Assembly: GCA_902578815.1 (NCBI GenBank)
Contig: CACHEI010000010.1
Location: 1 to 64,000, forward strand
Length of the DNA stretch: 64,000 nt
Source: an uncultured SAR116 cluster alpha proteobacterium
Lineage (GTDB): Bacteria > Pseudomonadota > Alphaproteobacteria > Puniceispirillales > Puniceispirillaceae
Direction of reading: 5' to 3'
Part shown: positions 2,326 to 32,179 of the stretch, piece by piece
How positions within the stretch are numbered: the stretch's first letter is position 1
Layout of the letters: each line of letters starts with the position of its first letter
Notes under the pieces: model-generated
What the model saw: only the letters and a program-made list of their open reading frames with translations
Told to the model about the DNA's origin: nothing
Databases searched by the model: none
Program-made: the position numbers and the translations under genes

Positions 2326-3030
2326 ATGGCTGATGAAGACGAAATTATTCTCACTGATCTGGACGATGACGAACTCGTGCAGCAAATGCATGACGATCTT
2401 TATGATGGACTCCAGGAAGAGATAGTCGAGGGCGTTGAAATCCTGCTAAGCCGTGGCTGGACACCCTATGAGGTTTTGACCAAAGCTCTAGTTGAGGGTA
2501 TGACGATTGTTGGCATTGATTTCCGTGATGGCATTTTGTTTGTGCCAGAGGTGTTGATGGCGGCCAACGCAATGAAGGCGGGAATGACAATTCTGCGCCC
2601 ACTGCTTGCCGAAACTGGTGCGCCCCGTGTCGGCAGCATGGTAATTGGAACGGTCAAGGGCGACATCCATGACATCGGCAAAAATTTGGTGTCGATGATG
2701 CTTGAGGGTGCTGGTTTTGATGTTGTCGATATCGGTATCAACAATCCTGTTGAAAATTATCTTGAAGCACTCGAGGAGCACAAGCCGGACATTCTTGGCA
2801 TGTCGGCGCTGCTGACGACAACGATGCCCTACATGAAAGTCGTAATTGATGTGCTTGTCGAAAAGGGTATCCGTGATGACTACATCGTGCTCGTCGGTGG
2901 TGCGCCCCTGAATGAGGCATTTGCCGACTCGGTCGGTGCCGATGCCTATTGCCGCGACGCAGCGGTTGCCGTTGAGACAGCCAAGGAGATGATTGCGGCA
3001 AAGCGTGAAAAGGCGCAGGTCGCTGGGTAG
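2326..3030 (+). CDS. Corrinoid (B12-binding) methyl-carrier protein, MtbC/MttC type
   Basis: This is a cobalamin-binding methyl carrier of 234 residues. Residues about 15-95 form the helical B12-binding cap (B12-binding-2 type), and the rest is the Rossmann-like B12 domain. The base-off/His-on signature DIHDIG is present with the cobalt-ligand His at about residue 115, followed by a GMSALLTTT block and LVGGAPLN. In methylamine systems such proteins accept a methyl from an MttB-type methyltransferase and give it to tetrahydrofolate through a second methyltransferase. This is the first gene of the corrinoid cluster reaching to 8.1 kb. The ATG follows GCGGAG at about -15. Confidence 0.9.
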   Translation: MADEDEIILTDLDDDELVQQMHDDLYDGLQEEIVEGVEILLSRGWTPYEVLTKALVEGMTIVGIDFRDGILFVPEVLMAANAMKAGMTILRPLLAETGAPRVGSMVIGTVKGDIHDIGKNLVSMMLEGAGFDVVDIGINNPVENYLEALEEHKPDILGMSALLTTTMPYMKVVIDVLVEKGIRDDYIVLVGGAPLNEAFADSVGADAYCRDAAVAVETAKEMIAAKREKAQVAG

Positions 3031-3042
3031 GCAGGAGACTGC

Positions 3043-3640
3043 GGCATATTTTGTCGAGCCTTCCAGAAAGGTCGGCCTGTTTAATTTGGCGTGTGGTACG
3101 GTGGCCCGTAAAGAAGTCAATATCCAGCGCCAATTCTTCTACGAGGTTGTCGAAATTACTTGTCTTCGTGCCTCCTGGCATAATCTTTTGGAAAAAATTG
3201 TTCCTGGCGATAGACGCAAGTTGGATGCTATGTTTAGAAGCACGCGTAATGTTACGGTGGTCTATGGTGATTGCGGGACTGGCGGCGATTTGGATGCATA
3301 TATAGAACAAGTGGGTGTTTTCCGCATTTTGGTGCCTTACTGCTTTGAGGTGTTTCTTTGCAAGCCTGTCTTTGACGATTAAATGGACAGCGTGCTCGCA
3401 ACCTTCTTCCTTGACCGATTACATGGTTTGGCATTTTGAAAGGGTCGTCATGCAAGGATTGGGCTACTCACGCACCCGCAGCTCCAGTATATCTATTTTG
3501 GTGATTAAACACGCGTTCTTTACATTACCCAGACAGAGGATTGAGCATTTCTGGTCAGTGCGAGCAGGCAGCGCAGTAATCAGTGCTGACTGGCCGTATA
3601 TAAATGCTTTCCGCGCTTTGTTGAAGACGCCCCCGCTACA
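3043..3640 (+). pseudogene. DUF1638 family gene, decayed by several frameshifts and stops
   Basis: Fragments of one DUF1638 protein appear in order but in different frames. Frame A (from about 3071) reads NLACGTVARKEV, VVEITCLRASWHNLLEKIV and VTVVYGDCGTGGDLDAYI, then stops at TAA 3380. Frame B picks up LTDYMVWHFERVVMQGLG at 3411-3464. Frame C reads THPQLQYIYFGD from 3470, hits TAA at 3506 where the family has Tyr, continues TRVLYITQTED, and stops again at TGA 3542. That makes at least two frameshifts and three stops. Intact homologues commonly sit in this position of corrinoid clusters; their function is unknown to me. Boundaries are approximate. Confidence 0.82.
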
Positions 3641-3715
3641 CCGCAGGCAACCGCCAACCCTCCTGCTTCATAGGCGATTAGATCACGGGTAACGCAGCAA
3701 CAGGATCACGGACAC

Positions 3716-4030
3716 ATGGCTAAATTAATTACACTTTATTGGCGTGATATCCCGGCACAGGTTATTGCGGAACGCGGCCGTGGCCGCAAGCGCGAACAGG
3801 CAAAGATCGAGCTTTCACGGCGCTTTGCCATCGCCATTGATGAGGCGGCGATGCGCGATCGTGCCGACAAGACGGATGATTATCTGGCTGAATGGCGCCG
3901 GGGTGAGCCAGTCGAATGTGGGGATGATCTTGATGCTGTTGCTGCTGAGCGTGCTGCCGCGCTAGAGGCGGAATATCCTGCGGACCGCGTCCGCACGTTG
4001 GTGGAAAATGGTGGAAAGTCGCCTGCTTAG
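3716..4030 (+). CDS. 'Virulence factor' family small protein (PF13769-like)
   Basis: A protein of 104 residues beginning MAKLITLYWRDIPAQVIAERGRG, the typical start of the small family misleadingly named 'virulence factor'. Members occur beside corrinoid protein and DUF1638 genes in methyl-transfer clusters. It is rich in charged residues, with no signal peptide, membrane helix or cysteine. Its function is not established; the location suggests a structural or accessory role in corrinoid methyl transfer. An AGGA lies about 13 bases before the ATG. It is intact although the DUF1638 gene just upstream is broken. Confidence 0.72.
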   Translation: MAKLITLYWRDIPAQVIAERGRGRKREQAKIELSRRFAIAIDEAAMRDRADKTDDYLAEWRRGEPVECGDDLDAVAAERAAALEAEYPADRVRTLVENGGKSPA

Positions 4031-4176: not shown

Positions 4177-4200
4177 ACTCCATTTTTGAACGAGGGGAAA

Positions 4201-5100
4201 ATGGCAGCGACCATTGAGCAGATTCGGCAGGCAGCAGAAGATTGGTCGATTGAGGTGACACCGACAGGTGCCACCAAGATTAAGAGTTTTCGCGATTGCC
4301 TTGCCCCGGGAACAACGGTGAACGTTACCTTTCTGCCAGGCAGTGATCCGATGGATACAATCGCGGTGGCGCAACGCCTGCATGATGATGGCATGAAGCC
4401 AGTGCCGCACCTTGCCGCCAGGTCATTGCGTGATGCAGATCAGCTTGATGAACTCTTGGCAGCTTTCACCGCCAAAGCAGGCGTCAGTGAGGTTCTCGTG
4501 ATTGGTGGGGGTGTCGACAATCCGCTCGGCCAATTTTCCGAATCCGTGCAGGTACTCAATACAGGATTGATCCAGAAACATGGCATCCGCTCCATCGGTG
4601 TTGCCGGCCATCCCGAGGGAAGTCCCGATATCAGCGATGACGAGATTGCCGAGGCTCTGGCGGCAAAGAATGCACTCGCCGTTCGCGAAGGGCTGGACCT
4701 TTATATCGAAACCCAATTCTGTTTCGAGGCGGATATTGTTTTGGACTGGGAGAGGGCGGTACGTGCCGCCGGCAACAAATTGCCCATCCGCATCGGCATT
4801 CCGGGACCAGCCACGATCAAAACACTGTTCCGCTTCGCCCAGATTTCGGGGATTGGTCCATCAATGCGCTTCATCTCGAAACAGGCCCGCAATGTTGCCA
4901 AATTGATGACGGTACAATCACCACACCTGATGCTCGATGGTCTTGCGCAGGGAATGGCAGGGGATCCAGACTGTCTGATAAGTCATTTCCATTTCTACCC
5001 CTTTGGTGGCTTTGCCAAAACAGCGGCTTACGCCCAAGCAATCGCCGACGGAAAAATTGAAACGTTGCCAAAAGGCGGCTTTGAGGTTATCGCCGCCTAA
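4201..5100 (+). CDS. Methylenetetrahydrofolate reductase-family protein (MetF-like)
   Basis: A TIM-barrel flavoprotein of the MetF family (299 residues) that interconverts methyl- and methylene-tetrahydrofolate. Recognisable segments are VNVTFLPGSDPMDTI, KPVPHLAARSL, VLVIGGG followed by the IGVAGHPEGSPD block, and ETQFCFEAD. In this cluster the likely direction is oxidative, feeding methyl groups taken from a methylated amine into the C1 pool. It is divergent from biosynthetic MetF, and its electron acceptor is unknown. The ATG at 4201 is chosen over TTG 4186. The gene is followed 28 bases later by the methyltransferase gene. Confidence 0.82.
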   Translation: MAATIEQIRQAAEDWSIEVTPTGATKIKSFRDCLAPGTTVNVTFLPGSDPMDTIAVAQRLHDDGMKPVPHLAARSLRDADQLDELLAAFTAKAGVSEVLVIGGGVDNPLGQFSESVQVLNTGLIQKHGIRSIGVAGHPEGSPDISDDEIAEALAAKNALAVREGLDLYIETQFCFEADIVLDWERAVRAAGNKLPIRIGIPGPATIKTLFRFAQISGIGPSMRFISKQARNVAKLMTVQSPHLMLDGLAQGMAGDPDCLISHFHFYPFGGFAKTAAYAQAIADGKIETLPKGGFEVIAA

Positions 5101-5128: not shown

Positions 5129-6031
5129 ATGACCAAAACACTGATTTCATCAGACAAAAATGAAATCACCATCGGCTTTGACTCACCGTTTTGCGTGATT
5201 GGTGAGCGGATCAACCCCACCGGCAGAAAGCTGCTCGCTGCTGAAATGGCCGCAGGTGATTACAGCCGGGTGATCTCTGATGCTGTCGCCCAGGTGGAAG
5301 CTGGCGCGACTATGCTCGATGTCAACGCCGGTATTCCGATGGCCGATGAACCTGCCATTCTGGCTGAGGCGATCAGGCTCGTGCAAGATGTGGTCGATGT
5401 GCCGCTTGCAATCGACAGTTCAATTGTTGCCGCACTGGAATCCGGCTTGTCCGTCTATAAGGGCAAGCCGTTGGTCAATTCGGTCACCGGCGAGGAGGAA
5501 CGCCTCGAGGTAGTTTTGCCGCTTGTGAAGAAATACAACGCTGCAGTTGTTGCTATTTCGAATGATGAGACGGGAATTTCAGAGGATCCGAATGTTCGCT
5601 ACGATGTTGCCAAGAAAATTGTTGAGCGTGCCGAGGATTATGGCATTCCGCGCGAGGATGTGGTGGTTGATCCACTAATCATGCCGGTTGGCGCGATAAA
5701 CCTTGCTGGCCGTTCGGCCATTGATTTGATCATTCGCCTGCGCAACGAGTTGAAAGTGAACACCACCTGTGGGGCGTCAAACATTTCCTTCGGACTGCCC
5801 AATCGGCATGGACTCAATTCTGCTTTCCTATCGATGGCTGCAGGAGCCGGCATGACCTCAGCTATCATGAATCCGCTTCACGCCGAGGAAATGACAGGTA
5901 TCATGGGCGCTAATGTAATGAATGGCAACGATCCGGAATGCCGGAGATGGATTGAAAAATTCCGCGAACCTGCGCTGCAGGGTGGGGGCGCTCGTCAGCG
6001 AAGGCAAACACGCCGCCGGCGCAGCGCCTGA
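5129..6031 (+). CDS. Methyltetrahydrofolate:corrinoid methyltransferase (pterin-binding domain)
   Basis: A protein of 300 residues with the pterin-binding TIM barrel shared by dihydropteroate synthase and MetH/AcsE-type methyltransferases. Motifs include GERINPTGRK, ATMLDVNAGIP, LAIDSS, LVNSVTGE, VDPLIMPVG and TCGASNISFGLPNR. It would transfer the methyl from the corrinoid protein to tetrahydrofolate, the second step after an MttB-type enzyme. The C-terminus, after the barrel, is a basic Arg/Gly/Gln-rich tail (about residues 284-300). Automated annotation may call it dihydropteroate synthase, but the corrinoid context favours the methyltransferase role. It lies 32 bases before the activator gene. 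Confidence 0.85.
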   Translation: MTKTLISSDKNEITIGFDSPFCVIGERINPTGRKLLAAEMAAGDYSRVISDAVAQVEAGATMLDVNAGIPMADEPAILAEAIRLVQDVVDVPLAIDSSIVAALESGLSVYKGKPLVNSVTGEEERLEVVLPLVKKYNAAVVAISNDETGISEDPNVRYDVAKKIVERAEDYGIPREDVVVDPLIMPVGAINLAGRSAIDLIIRLRNELKVNTTCGASNISFGLPNRHGLNSAFLSMAAGAGMTSAIMNPLHAEEMTGIMGANVMNGNDPECRRWIEKFREPALQGGGARQRRQTRRRRSA

Positions 6032-6063: not shown

Positions 6064-8115
6064 ATGACCGACGACAACAGCGCGAGATTTGGAAAATCGC
6101 CGGATGAGGTGAAAATCATTTTTATCCCATCGGGCAGACAGGGCCATGTTCCCGTTGGAACGACCGTGCTGAAGGCCGCGCGCACCCTCGGTGTTGACAT
6201 CGACTCCGTTTGCGGTGGGCGTGCGTTGTGTGGGCGTTGTCAGATTACGGTTGCCAGTGGCGAGTTTGCCAAACATGGCATCACCTCGGGCGCTGAAAGC
6301 CTTGGAGATGTGACCGCAGTTGAGACCCGTTATGCAGATAAAAAGGGTCTTCGTGATGATAGGCGCCTGTCCTGTCAGTCGCTGCTTTGCGGTGACGTGG
6401 TCATTGATGTCCCACCTGAAAGTCAGGTCCATAACCAGCTTGTGCGCAAGGCCGCAGATGACCGGCAGATCGAGATGGATCCGATTGTCCGCCTGTGCCT
6501 TGTTGAGGTGCGCGAACCGGACATGCACGAACCCTCGGGTGATTTTCGCCGTTTGGTGGAGGCGGTAGAGGCGCAATGGCCGGATCGCGTGATCGGCAGA
6601 ATCAGCTGTGATCTGAATATTCTGCAATCCCTGCAACCGGTGTTGCGTGCTGGCAAATGGCAGGTGACGGTGGCACTTCGTGACGGGCATCACATTGTCG
6701 GCATCTGGCCCGGCCTGAAGGACCGCATTGTCGGCGTTGCCATTGATGTGGGATCGACAACCATGTCGGCGAATCTGTGCGACATGGTAACTGGCGAGGT
6801 TCTTGCCTCAACAGGTGCGATGAACCCACAAATCCGCTTTGGCGAGGATCTTATGAGCCGTGTTTCCTATGGGATCATGAATCCCGGCGGTGACAGAGAG
6901 ATGACAGCTGCGGTGATTAAAGATTTGCAGAGCCTGATTTCGGGCGCTGCGGAACAGGTCGGCCTGACCCCTGAGGATGTTCTGGAAATTGTGCTTGTCG
7001 GCAATCCGGTGATGCACCATCTGCTGCTTGGAATCGATCCGGTTGAACTTGGTGGAGCGCCTTTCGCCCTTGCGGTTGATACCGCCGTTGACATTCATGC
7101 TAGCGAGCTTGGCCTTAGCGTTCATCCGGGTGCGCGTGTTTATGTTCTGCCCTGCATCGCCGGTCATGTCGGTGCAGATGCCGCAGGGGTGGTTTTGGCT
7201 GAGGCTCCACAGAAACATGATGAATACACGCTTGTAGTCGATGTAGGCACCAATGCTGAAATTGTTGTTGGCAACTCACAGCGGATGCTTGCTGCCTCGT
7301 CACCCACAGGCCCGGCTTTCGAGGGGGCGCAGATTTCCTCCGGCCAGCGCGCCGCGCCTGGAGCGATTGAGCGTGTTCGCATCGACAGGGACACGCTTGA
7401 ACCCCGGTTTCGGGTGATCGGAGTTGACCAATGGTCTGATGAGGTGGGCTTTGATAATGCGGTTAAGACAACCGGCATTACTGGTATTTGTGGTTCGGGT
7501 ATCATTGAGGCTTTAGCGGAGATGTATCTTGCTGGGATCATTTTGATGGACGGCGTTATCGATGGTCAAAAGGCCGATCAATCGGCCCGTATCGAGGCCG
7601 ATGGCCGCACGTTTTGCTACCGTATTTCAGAGAGTGTAATAGTAACGCAGAATGATGTTCGCGCGATCCAGCTTGCCAAGGCAGCTCTTTATGCCGGTTT
7701 TCGACTGCTGATGGACAAAATGCAGATCAAAACCATCGACAGAGTTGTTTTGGCGGGTGCCTTTGGCACACATATCGACCCAAAATATGCGATGGTGCTT
7801 GGGATGATCCCCGATTGCCAACTGGAAAATGTCCGCGCTGCTGGCAATTCGGCTGGGACCGGGGCGCGGATAGCGCTGCTCAATCGTGGTGCCCGCCGCG
7901 AGATCGAGGCTGTTGTCCGTGACATCGAAAAGATCGAAACGGCCATCGAACCATCGTTTCAGGACCATTTTGTCAAGGCAATGGCGATCCCGCATAAAAG
8001 CGATCCCTATGCAAGGCTCGCCGCCGAGGTTGAGTTGCCTGAGCGCATTCTGACGGCTGAGGACGCCCCAGCCATCGAGGGTGGCCGCCGCCGTGGTGGC
8101 CGCCGCCGTGCCTAA
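6064..8115 (+). CDS. [2Fe-2S]/ASKHA-domain reductive activator of corrinoid protein (RamA/RACE type, DUF4445)
   Basis: A protein of 683 residues. The N-terminal ferredoxin-like domain (about 15-115) has cysteines in VCGGRALCGRC and LSCQSLLC for a [2Fe-2S] cluster. The C-terminal part is an ASKHA ATPase-like domain with VAIDVGSTTMSANLCD (about 225-240), VVDVGTNAEIVVGN and GICGSGIIEALAEM. Such proteins use ATP and a reduced Fe-S cluster to return accidentally oxidised Co(II) corrinoid to Co(I). It is the last gene of the cluster. The protein ends in GGRRRGGRRRA, encoded by a perfect 15-bp tandem repeat. It converges on ccmD with only four bases between stop codons. Confidence 0.88.
   Translation: MTDDNSARFGKSPDEVKIIFIPSGRQGHVPVGTTVLKAARTLGVDIDSVCGGRALCGRCQITVASGEFAKHGITSGAESLGDVTAVETRYADKKGLRDDRRLSCQSLLCGDVVIDVPPESQVHNQLVRKAADDRQIEMDPIVRLCLVEVREPDMHEPSGDFRRLVEAVEAQWPDRVIGRISCDLNILQSLQPVLRAGKWQVTVALRDGHHIVGIWPGLKDRIVGVAIDVGSTTMSANLCDMVTGEVLASTGAMNPQIRFGEDLMSRVSYGIMNPGGDREMTAAVIKDLQSLISGAAEQVGLTPEDVLEIVLVGNPVMHHLLLGIDPVELGGAPFALAVDTAVDIHASELGLSVHPGARVYVLPCIAGHVGADAAGVVLAEAPQKHDEYTLVVDVGTNAEIVVGNSQRMLAASSPTGPAFEGAQISSGQRAAPGAIERVRIDRDTLEPRFRVIGVDQWSDEVGFDNAVKTTGITGICGSGIIEALAEMYLAGIILMDGVIDGQKADQSARIEADGRTFCYRISESVIVTQNDVRAIQLAKAALYAGFRLLMDKMQIKTIDRVVLAGAFGTHIDPKYAMVLGMIPDCQLENVRAAGNSAGTGARIALLNRGARREIEAVVRDIEKIETAIEPSFQDHFVKAMAIPHKSDPYARLAAEVELPERILTAEDAPAIEGGRRRGGRRRA
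8080..8109 (+). repeat. Perfect 15-bp tandem duplication encoding an Arg/Gly tail
   Basis: GGTGGCCGCCGCCGT occurs twice back to back, in frame, at the 3' end of the activator gene, giving GGRRR twice. It contributes the basic tail of the protein and could change copy number by slippage without altering the frame. Confidence 0.85.
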
Positions 8116-28140: not shown

Positions 28141-30579
28141 ATGAAAACGCATGCACGCGTTGTTGTCATTGGGGGCGGTGTTGTTGGTGTCAGCACCTTG
28201 TACCATCTGGCTAAAAAAGGCTGGTCTGACGTTGTTCTTGTGGAACGCAGGGAACTGACCTCGGGTTCGACCTGGCATGCCGCCGGCCTGCTGCCGCTGT
28301 TCAACATGTCCTATTCCGTTGGCCAGGTGCATAAATATTCGGTCAAATTCTACCAGGAACTGCAGGAAGAGACAGGTATGGATGTCGGTTTCCGCAATGT
28401 CTCGAACATTCGTCTTGCCTCAAAGCCTGACCGCATGGACGAATATCGGCAATATGCCGGCGTTGCCAGCACCATTGGTGTCGATGTCCAGATTCTGACC
28501 CCTGAGGAGGTCAAGCATTACTGGCCAATGTGCAACACCGATGGCCTGATCGGTGCGATCCGGCACCCGGGTGACGGCTATATCCAGCCTGCCGACCTGA
28601 CACAGGCACTGGCGCGTGGCGCGCGGGATCGGGGCGCCGAAATCTATCGTAATACCACCGTGACCGCGATCAGCCGGACCACCGACAGCGAGTGGAAGGT
28701 GACAACCGACAAGGGCGAGATCAACTGCGAGCATGTGGTCAGCTGTTCGGGTAATTTTGCCCGCAAGACAGGCCAGATGGTTGGCTTGAACGTGCCGGTG
28801 ATCCCGGTTGAGCATCAATATATAGTCACCGAGGCGCATCAGGACATCAAGGACCGCCATGCGCGGGGCGAGCCAGAGATGGGAGTGCTGCGGGATTCTG
28901 ATGGTCAATGGTATATGCGCGAGGAGGCGGGTGGCTTGATCCTCGGCCCCTATGAAAAGGGCGCGCCAGCCTGCTATGTCGATGGGCCAGGCGATGACTC
29001 AGAATATGAATTGTTCCAGGAAGATCTTGAACGTCTGGAACCGCATATCGAGTCAGCGATAGAACGAGTTCCAGGTTTTGGCGAGGTTGGTGTGAAAAAG
29101 GTCTACAATGGCGCTATTGCCTACACGCCGGATGGCAATCCAATCATCGGTCCGGCATGGGATGTGCCGAATTTCTGGCTAAATGAGGGGCATAGCTTCG
29201 GCATCACCGCCGCTGGCGGCGCTGGCTGGCAGCTTGCCGAATGGATTGTTGAAGGCGAGCCAGCCATTGATATGCTAGGCGTCGACCCAAGGCGCTATGG
29301 CAGCTATACTTCGCAATCCTATCTAAAGGTCAAAAATGAAGAAGCCTATGAGAATGTGTTCACCATCCATTACCCGGATGAGGAGCGGGCTGCCGCGCGT
29401 CCGCTGCGCACTGCACCCTGCTATGACCGCCTAAAGGCCCTTGGTGCTGTGTTCGGCCAGAAATTTGGCTGGGAGCGGGCCAACTGGTTCGCGCCGGCGG
29501 AAACGCCGCAGGAGGATCACTGGTCCTTCCGCCGGTCGAACTGGTTTGAACATGTCGGCAATGAAGTCCGCAACGTTCAGGCAAATGCCGGTTTGCTGGA
29601 TATGTCGGCCTTTTCCAAATGCCGTATTTCCGGCTCGGGTGCCGAGGCTTTCCTCGATCATCTTGTTGCCAACAGGCTGCCAGGCAGGGTGGGGCGGGTT
29701 GCGCTTTGCCATGCCCTGACTGAACGCGGCGGGGTGCATTCTGAATTTACCATCCAGCGTGAATCTGAGGACAGTTTCTATCTTGTCGCCGCCGGCGCGG
29801 CACAGCGGCTGGATCATGACTGGATCAGGAAACACATGCCGGATGATGGCTCTGTCCGTTTCGACAACATTACCAATTCCATCGGTGTGCTGGTTCTGGC
29901 CGGACCAAAGGCACGTGACATTCTGCAGAAAATCACCCGCGCCGATCTCAGCAATGCGGCTTTTCCGTGGCTGTCCAGTCGCCTGATCGAGGTAAATCTC
30001 GCACCGGCAATGGCGTTCCGCATGAATTTTGTTGGCGAGCTTGGCTGGGAACTGCATCACCCGATCGAATATCAAAACCATATCTTTGATGCGCTGATGG
30101 ATGCCGGTGCCGAGTTTGGCCTGAAGCCCTTCGGCATCCGGGCCATGGACGCCATGCGGCTGGAGAAATCCTACCGCCTTGTTGGTACCGAATTGTCGAT
30201 CGAATATGCGGCGCTTGAGAGTGGCCTCGACAGGTTTGTTCATCTGAACAAGGGTGATTTCAAGGGACGCCAGAAACTCAGCCAGTGGCAGGAAGCTGGC
30301 TTTGCGAACACTATGGTCACGCTCGAGGTGCATGACACCACCGATGCCGATGCCATTGGCGGCAACCCGATCATGCTTCCCGATGGCGAGGTCATTGGCC
30401 GCGCGACCAGCGGTGGCTTTGGATTCCGCGTTAATAAATCCCTGGCTCTGGCGATGGTGCGGCCGGACCATGCCGCCGTCGACACGGAGCTGATGATCGA
30501 CATTCTTGACCAGCGCCTGCGAGCTACGATTGTCAACGAATCCCCCTATGACCCGGGTAATGAAAAACTGCGTGCCTGA
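28141..30579 (+). CDS. Dimethylglycine/sarcosine dehydrogenase-like FAD oxidoreductase with GcvT domains
   Basis: A protein of 812 residues. The N-terminal DAO-type flavin domain (about 5-370) has VVVIGGGVVGVSTLYHLA, then TSGSTWHAAGL, whose His (about 46) covalently carries FAD in dimethylglycine and sarcosine dehydrogenases. The C-terminal half (about 420-805) is a folate-binding GcvT region. The expected reaction is oxidative demethylation with capture of the C1 unit as methylene-THF. Dimethylglycine is the most likely substrate because an MttB-family gene follows 46 bases later and sarcosine oxidase genes lie beyond, but sarcosine or related amines cannot be excluded. GGGGAG precedes the ATG. 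Confidence 0.85.
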   Translation: MKTHARVVVIGGGVVGVSTLYHLAKKGWSDVVLVERRELTSGSTWHAAGLLPLFNMSYSVGQVHKYSVKFYQELQEETGMDVGFRNVSNIRLASKPDRMDEYRQYAGVASTIGVDVQILTPEEVKHYWPMCNTDGLIGAIRHPGDGYIQPADLTQALARGARDRGAEIYRNTTVTAISRTTDSEWKVTTDKGEINCEHVVSCSGNFARKTGQMVGLNVPVIPVEHQYIVTEAHQDIKDRHARGEPEMGVLRDSDGQWYMREEAGGLILGPYEKGAPACYVDGPGDDSEYELFQEDLERLEPHIESAIERVPGFGEVGVKKVYNGAIAYTPDGNPIIGPAWDVPNFWLNEGHSFGITAAGGAGWQLAEWIVEGEPAIDMLGVDPRRYGSYTSQSYLKVKNEEAYENVFTIHYPDEERAAARPLRTAPCYDRLKALGAVFGQKFGWERANWFAPAETPQEDHWSFRRSNWFEHVGNEVRNVQANAGLLDMSAFSKCRISGSGAEAFLDHLVANRLPGRVGRVALCHALTERGGVHSEFTIQRESEDSFYLVAAGAAQRLDHDWIRKHMPDDGSVRFDNITNSIGVLVLAGPKARDILQKITRADLSNAAFPWLSSRLIEVNLAPAMAFRMNFVGELGWELHHPIEYQNHIFDALMDAGAEFGLKPFGIRAMDAMRLEKSYRLVGTELSIEYAALESGLDRFVHLNKGDFKGRQKLSQWQEAGFANTMVTLEVHDTTDADAIGGNPIMLPDGEVIGRATSGGFGFRVNKSLALAMVRPDHAAVDTELMIDILDQRLRATIVNESPYDPGNEKLRA

Positions 30580-30625: not shown

Positions 30626-32179
30626 ATGTCTGAAATTCAGGTAACAGGGCGGCGTTCGCGTCGCGGCGGCGGGCGTGATGCGCGGCGTCAATTGCGGACC
30701 GGTGGCGGTGGCGGTGCTAGCGCGCCGTTCATTACGCGCAACATTCCGCCTGTCGATATTCTCAGTGATGAGGCGACAGAGATCATTGAGGCCAATGCCG
30801 AGACCATCCTTGAGGACATCGGCATTGATTTTCGTGATGATACGGAGGCGCTCGATATCCTGCGCAATGTCGGCTGCGACGTAAAAGGTGAACGGGTGCA
30901 TTTTCCCCGCGGGCTGGCGCGCCAGCTTTGCGCCACGGCCCCTGCCAGCTTCACCCAACATGCGCGCAATTCTGCCCGCTCTGTGGAGATAGGGGGAAAT
31001 AAGATAGTGTTTGCGCCTGTCTATGGCCCGCCATTTGTTCGTGATCTTGAGGGTGAGCGCCGTTATGCCACGATGAATGATTTCTGCAATTTCGTGAAAC
31101 TCGTCTATATGCATCCCGGTTTTCACCATTCCGGCGGTACCGTCTGCGAGCCTGTCGATCTGCCGGTGACAAAGCGTCATCTCGAGATGATCTATGCGCA
31201 TCAGCGCCTGTCCGACAAGCCCTATATGGGTTCGGTCACGGCCCCTAGCCGGGCGCAGGACACGGTTGATATGTCAAAAATCCTGTTTGGTGACGAGTTT
31301 GTTGCCAACAACACGGTCTGTGTCAGCCTGATAAATGCCAATTCGCCGATGACCTGGGATGACACAATGCTGGGCGCGCTTAAGGTCTATGCACGGAACA
31401 ATCAGGCGGTGATCACCGCGCCGTTCATTCTGGCCGGGGCAATGTCGCCGGTCTCGGTTGCTGGCACACTTGCCCAGACCCTTGCCGAAGCGATGAGCGG
31501 CATCGCCTTCACCCAGGCGGTCAATCCTGGCGCGCCAGTGATTTTTGGTAGTTTTGCCAGCTCGATGTCGATGCAGACAGGCGCCCCGACCTTCGGCACG
31601 CCGGAACCTGCCAAGGTGCTTTATGGCTGCGCCAAACTGGCTCGCCGTCTTGGGGTGCCGTTCCGTTCTGGCGGCTCGCTCACCGGGGCCAAGACCCCTG
31701 ATGCGCAGGCCGCTTATGAGTCCACCCATACCATTTTGCCAACGGTGATGGGCGGCGTTAATTTTGTTCTTCATGCTGGCGGATGGATGGAGGGCGGTCT
31801 GGTCGCCGACTACGCCAAGCTGCTGCTTGATGCCGATCAATTGACGATGATGCAGAATTTGGTCGATGGCATTGATGTGTCGGAAAACGGCCAGGCGATG
31901 AATGCGCTTCACGAAACCGGCCCGGGCCAGCATTTCCTCGGCTCATCCCACACCCAGGCGAATTTTGAGACGGCTTTCTGGCGCTCGGAAATGGCCGACA
32001 ACAACACTTTTGAACAATGGTCATCCGAAGGCTGCATCGAGAGCAATGCCAGAGCCCGCGTTCGCGTTCGCGAGATGCTGGATTCATATCAGGAACCGGC
32101 CCTCGATAAGGCGATTGATGAGGCACTGCGCGCCTTTATTGCCTGCCGGATGGAGGAGTTGCCGGACGCCGACTACTAG
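30626..32179 (+). CDS. Trimethylamine methyltransferase (MttB) family protein, non-pyrrolysine type
   Basis: A TIM-barrel corrinoid-dependent methyltransferase of 517 residues. The frame has no internal amber codon, so it lacks the pyrrolysine of true trimethylamine methyltransferase. Characterised non-Pyl members act on glycine betaine and other quaternary amines. Segments include VDILSDEATEIIEANAETIL near the start, APVYGPPFVRDLEG, NAGPM-equivalent NANSPMTWDD, and VMGGVNFVLHAGGWMEGG. Residues about 6-31 are an Arg/Gly-rich tail before the family domain. It lies 46 bases after the dehydrogenase gene, probably one operon. The corrinoid partner is likely the gene at 2.3 kb. Confidence 0.87.
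   Translation: MSEIQVTGRRSRRGGGRDARRQLRTGGGGGASAPFITRNIPPVDILSDEATEIIEANAETILEDIGIDFRDDTEALDILRNVGCDVKGERVHFPRGLARQLCATAPASFTQHARNSARSVEIGGNKIVFAPVYGPPFVRDLEGERRYATMNDFCNFVKLVYMHPGFHHSGGTVCEPVDLPVTKRHLEMIYAHQRLSDKPYMGSVTAPSRAQDTVDMSKILFGDEFVANNTVCVSLINANSPMTWDDTMLGALKVYARNNQAVITAPFILAGAMSPVSVAGTLAQTLAEAMSGIAFTQAVNPGAPVIFGSFASSMSMQTGAPTFGTPEPAKVLYGCAKLARRLGVPFRSGGSLTGAKTPDAQAAYESTHTILPTVMGGVNFVLHAGGWMEGGLVADYAKLLLDADQLTMMQNLVDGIDVSENGQAMNALHETGPGQHFLGSSHTQANFETAFWRSEMADNNTFEQWSSEGCIESNARARVRVREMLDSYQEPALDKAIDEALRAFIACRMEELPDADY

Follow-up and report, generated by a model that had tools for sequence, protein, structure and literature searches.

Is the DUF1638 gene that lies between mtgC and a PF13769 gene in this SAR116 alphaproteobacterium truly dead and, if so, how can the corrinoid operon around it do without it? 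The window, meaning the whole stretch of DNA analysed, comprises 64 kb from the start of a 65 kb contig; the draft genome to which it belongs totals 2.07 Mb over 82 contigs and is ~70% complete.

The DUF1638 remnant and its intact neighbours

Alignment to the intact DUF1638 proteins of the nearest congener, G004 (233 aa), and of G003 (226 aa) traces the remnant in the slot between mtgC and the PF13769 gene (3005-3692; Table 1), so that the extent of 3043-3640 given by a sequence-only reading was too short. The start codon, GTG at 3005, is preserved and lies within the 3' end of mtgC, and similarity to the congeners extends as far as TAA 3690-3692. The G004 protein matches this syntenic slot over 217 residues (tblastn E = 5e-72), indicating that the homology is not due to chance and upholding the DUF1638 identity that had been assigned to the fragments. 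Together with the conserved position downstream of mtgC, in a slot that the gene also occupies in G003, G004 and other genera, this homology identifies the remnant as a DUF1638 ortholog by descent. It no longer scores as a functional family member (PF07796 23.5 bits genome-wide and 20.8 bits for the open fragment, against a Pfam curated cut-off of 27 and 83-97 bits for intact congeners), nor does it retain a single open frame or the full set of near-invariant residues. Relative to G004 it carries in-frame stops at TAA 3380, TAA 3506, TGA 3542, TAA 3577 and TGA 3587, and indels of +1 at 3411, -1 at 3461, -1 at 3561, -14 at 3581 and +1 at 3637, the stretch between the first two indels being frame-shifted (LTDYMVWHFERVVMQG). 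The first three stops, all in homologous codons, had been placed exactly by the sequence-only reading, which also recognized two frameshifts correctly and missed the last two stops and three further indels. Comparison with close relatives finds the DUF1638 frame open at the same slot in both G003 and G004.

Table 1. Features of the window discussed in the text
Feature	Position	Strand	Basis
MtgC-like corrinoid (B12-binding) protein, intact	2326..3030	+	PF02310, PF02607; 97-98% identity to congeners; G000 (window genome)-G004 dN/dS 0.02
DUF1638 (PF07796) pseudogene remnant	3005..3692	+	GTG start kept; five stops, five indels; tblastn, residue loss, neutral N:S
PF13769 'Virulence_fact' small protein, intact	3716..4030	+	Pfam; conserved SAR116 operon member
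MTHFR (metF2-like), intact	4186..5100	+	PF02219; dN/dS
MtgD-like methyltetrahydrofolate:corrinoid methyltransferase, intact	5129..6031	+	PF00809; PRK07535 372 bits, cut-off 259
RamA/RACo-type corrinoid reductive activator (DUF4445 type), intact	6064..8115	+	PF14574, PF17651, PF17650
Dimethylglycine/sarcosine dehydrogenase-like protein, intact	28141..30576	+	Window ORF comparison; profile search
MttB-superfamily methyltransferase, MtgB candidate, intact	30626..32176	+	PF06253 753 bits; TIGR02369 below cut-off

Near-invariant positions, defined as those conserved in at least 97% of 84 intact alphaproteobacterial sequences, number 34, of which 9 are lost in the remnant and 1 in G004. When G003 and G004 are used to polarise branch changes, 62 non-synonymous and 21 synonymous changes (N:S) fall to the window lineage in DUF1638, for which the neutral expectation is 2.7-3.1 to 1, against a summed 51:120 for five neighbouring genes (Fisher p 1e-11). 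Pairwise dN/dS between the window and G004 is 0.57 for DUF1638 versus 0.02-0.19 for the other operon genes. When ORFs of the syntenic stretch in G003 were compared with the 64-kb window, DUF1638 was the only broken gene once ORFs on the antisense strand and stops lying ahead of real starts were set aside. PF07796 matches occur in 32/136 genomes of the order and, among the matches listed, only the window copy has an internal stop. Artefacts of assembly or sequencing over an intact gene are scarcely credible as the cause of the damage. The draft state of the genome, with its 82 contigs, and the single-base size of four of the five indels would allow for them, but the 14-base deletion, the five stops and the 62 lineage-specific non-synonymous changes at a neutral ratio exclude a few base-call errors, near-invariant residues are changed (9/34) and other window genes lack comparable damage, bearing out the earlier argument from several independent lesions.

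Could the open N-terminal 125 codons (3005-3379) still encode a useful shortened protein? The kept start codon and the unchanged C31, C54, C91, C114 and H60 would allow it; however, these codons alone have a neutral N:S of 39:15, the conserved H113, G111, P63 and E37 are lost within them and the C-terminal half is missing. We rejected a functional fragment on the basis of the neutral ratio and the lost conserved residues, and consider it very improbable. The stretch is almost certainly a genuine unitary pseudogene of DUF1638. A suspicion that the G004 gene is also dead was dropped given its open frame and single changed near-invariant site, with mild relaxation being possible there (N:S 15:11).

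The flanking genes had been described as intact, and they are indeed intact and under purifying selection. MtgC and MtgD have the B12-binding (PF02310/PF02607) and pterin-binding (PF00809, with PRK07535 above its cut-off) domains of the split methionine synthase MtgBCDE, and the activator has the linker, middle and C-terminal ASKHA domains of RamA/RACo (PF17650, PF17651 and PF14574, respectively), all far over cut-offs. The small PF13769 protein is a constant member of the operon throughout SAR116 and is seen again close to mtgC in Roseibium and Rhizobiales; its family name, 'Virulence_fact', looks misleading.

Neutral-rate decay amid a kept operon, and the many relatives without the gene, indicate that DUF1638 is dispensable here, as had been proposed. 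The accompanying proposal of replacement by a copy elsewhere fared less well. A functional second copy that took over and freed the local one to decay could lie in the ~30% of the genome absent from the assembly, but the remnant is the sole PF07796 match in the 70%-complete assembly, relatives normally hold one copy, at the mtgC-PF13769 slot, extra matches occur only in two fragmented bins (G021 and G509), and many relatives have no DUF1638 at all, making this improbable. A DUF1638 match in another genome (G498:C48:6270-6533) covers profile positions 1-88 only, in a 131-aa frame, and is either cut off by the end of a contig or a second, truncated copy.

Distribution of DUF1638 in SAR116 and other Alphaproteobacteria

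The order mtgC-[DUF1638]-PF13769-metF-mtgD-ramA is conserved across SAR116. Among 61 genomes of the order, including that of the window, 45 have MtgC, 47 score above the cut-off for RACo and 18 do so for DUF1638; in SAR116 genomes that are at least 90% complete and have RACo, DUF1638 is absent from 22 and present in 12. The gene occupies its slot in genera g1, g2, g3, g4, g7 and g11. The slot is cleanly empty in genera g5, g6, g8, g9 and g10, in genome G023 (of g4) and in families f2 and f3, all of which keep mtgC, PF13769, metF, mtgD and ramA, with a gap of about 15-180 bases between mtgC and PF13769. Since the SAR116 copies form a single clade, mtgC-DUF1638 adjacency is usual in other Alphaproteobacteria and the identical order with DUF1638 is found in Roseibium and a Rhodospirillales genome, we interpret absence from the slot as loss. 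In a tree built from five proteins of the operon, which is not a species tree and has outgroups on long branches, the absences need at least five changes, giving five to seven losses if the gene was never regained. Recurrent loss of DUF1638 in SAR116 is, in our judgement, highly probable. Operon residues were also scanned for any that change in step with the absence of DUF1638, and only kinship-confounded sites came out.

Alternatively, an unrelated gene may have replaced DUF1638 in SAR116, with its job still needed. Such a replacement would accommodate the observation that several SAR116 genera keep mtgC, mtgD, mtgE and ramA without DUF1638, on which methionine synthesis in Phaeobacter depends (PMC5764234), but the empty slot is filled by nothing beyond the short gap given above and no candidate substitute emerged from the loci compared. 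We consider replacement less likely than DUF1638 having become unnecessary.

Two further observations concern the wider content of the order. Family f4 (genera g14 and g17) is without MtgC, MttB and DUF1638 and has only one sub-threshold RACo match, apparently having none of the system at all. Genome G037 holds, besides a standard SAR116 operon, a second divergent corrinoid/pterin/RACo set (L175, G037:C1:938500-948500) whose MtgC is 44% identical.

Our survey of the class used listings for 385 alphaproteobacterial genomes and counted matches of at least 260 bits as long-type RACo. Outside SAR116, DUF1638 is present in 66/71 genomes with long-type RACo, the five without it being G131, G134, G235, G252 and G284, of which only G235 is >90% complete. 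In all named non-SAR116 loci with >1 kb of room except L121, mtgC has DUF1638 downstream of it in the same orientation. DUF1638 has been reported to have a distribution near-identical to that of the RamA-like activator in Alphaproteobacteria (PMC5764234); given this report and the 66/71 genomes outside SAR116, versus 12 with and 22 without the gene inside it, SAR116 is a clear exception to DUF1638-RamA coupling. In L121 (Rhodovulum sp. 12E13) there is no DUF1638 within 6 kb downstream of mtgC, a possible further loss. G235 (93% complete) and G330 belong to one genus outside SAR116 and both have RACo matches of >300 bits, with DUF1638 only in G330, and G235 may represent a recent loss.

The methionine branch and the role of the operon

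Ruegeria uses MtgC and MtgD in two pathways, demethylation of glycine betaine and synthesis of methionine, and MtgE supplies the homocysteine module (PMC12478193). The orthologous mtgE locus of the window genome is broken, leaving the split methionine synthase without its homocysteine-binding component: this gene of the betaine-homocysteine methyltransferase type is a pseudogene (L187, C1:155500-161000, at about 2380-3010) with two stops and an internal deletion of several hundred bases. The G004 gene (L191) is also a remnant, in several frames with three stops, and none of the visible lesions is common to the window genome (G000) and G004. G003 has an intact mtgE (L196; PRK07534 460.7 bits, cut-off 338) between a DJ-1-like gene and an apparent aspS, and the locus is the same in the other two genomes. 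MtgE is also absent from G023, a genome that has lost DUF1638 although its genus bears the gene, and losses of the two genes coincide twice within DUF1638-bearing genera. Families f2 and f3 and genera g5, g6, g9 and g10 have intact MtgE without DUF1638, however, so loss of mtgE is not required for loss of DUF1638; with the converse in G004, where mtgE is dead and DUF1638 open, the link between the two is suggestive at best. That mtgE loss triggered DUF1638 loss in the window genome is plausible, and we rate it at somewhat under an even chance.

The loss of mtgE is consistent with a shift to demethylation only in this genome, which would suit the earlier suggestion that DUF1638 is not needed for the substrate handled here, but other SAR116 lineages retain mtgE without DUF1638. 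Strong selection on MtgC, MtgD, MetF and RamA, and the intact MttB-family and dimethylglycine/sarcosine dehydrogenase-like genes, make demethylation of betaine-like compounds the likely role. Intact MttB-family proteins of the window genome are candidates for the glycine-betaine MtgB, and the dehydrogenase-like product likely acts in the next demethylation step. Judging from gene content, the operon of the window genome probably functions solely in B12-dependent N-methyl demethylation of the glycine-betaine type. Methionine might be supplied by a short MetE-like protein and a homocysteine S-methyltransferase-like protein, predicted from sequences that both fall under NCBIfam cut-offs; MetE-like matches do not follow DUF1638 loss in the sampled relatives. 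Replacement by a classical MetH was considered and is without support, as the MetH reactivation domain (PF02965) was found in 0/61 genomes of the order. Another homocysteine-methyltransferase-like gene of the window genome may also be decaying, as a separate PF02574 fragment contains a TGA stop (L188, C21:2065-2328).

We consider it likely that DUF1638 decayed in place within the SAR116 (Puniceispirillum-type) MtgBCD operon, as one of several losses in the order, with relaxed selection as the likely mechanism. On this reading DUF1638 has become non-essential in the order and has been lost several times, with MtgC, MtgD, MetF and the RamA-like activator staying under strong selection; in the window genome, decay of MtgE may have meant that a contribution of DUF1638 to methionine synthesis was no longer selected.

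What DUF1638 itself may do is suggested by four cysteines and two histidines that are invariant or nearly so, and which may therefore form a metal site. An AlphaFold model of good quality (pLDDT 85) gave no confident fold match in the PDB (best Foldseek E 0.007; VIA-align Z at most 7.5, the usual background), and no solved relative was found by sequence. Published functional clues are limited to a methionine phenotype in Phaeobacter and the distribution shared with the RamA-like activator noted above (PMC5764234), together with raised levels of the protein on methylated osmolytes in Ruegeria (PMC12478193). Speculatively, and with the balance leaning against it, DUF1638 could stand outside general cobalamin reactivation by RamA and meet a narrower need, such as the methionine-synthase mode or a property of MtgC lost in SAR116 lineages, with a RamA-type activator alone being sufficient. 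If so, SAR116 genomes with MtgC and RamA and without DUF1638 would be natural knock-outs showing this sufficiency.

Comparison with known systems

A gene thought to be coupled to the B12 methyl-transfer machinery can thus be dispensed with. Its repeated loss with partners kept, in one case caught mid-decay, breaks the coupling and provides natural knock-outs for the study of DUF1638 function; it also cautions against taking DUF1638 to mark working B12 methyltransferase systems in genomes from the ocean. Phaeobacter inhibens makes methionine through a split B12-dependent synthase assisted by RamA-like and DUF1638 proteins (Price et al., 2018; PMC5764234). The window genome resembles it in having a B12-binding MtgC with DUF1638 directly downstream, a protein of the pterin-binding type and a RamA-like activator, but differs in that DUF1638 and the homocysteine-binding MtgE, both important for methionine synthesis in P. 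inhibens (PMC5764234), are dead. MtgC, MtgD, MetF2-like, RamA and MttB-type genes are all intact, as in the MtgBCDE system of Ruegeria pomeroyi (PMC12478193), in contrast to which MtgE and DUF1638 have been lost and mtgC, metF, mtgD and ramA form one operon-like run rather than being scattered. The closest likeness in gene order is to operons of Roseibium and Rhodospirillales (L062, L101 and L128), which have the identical arrangement mtgC-DUF1638-PF13769-metF-mtgD-ramA, but with DUF1638 present.
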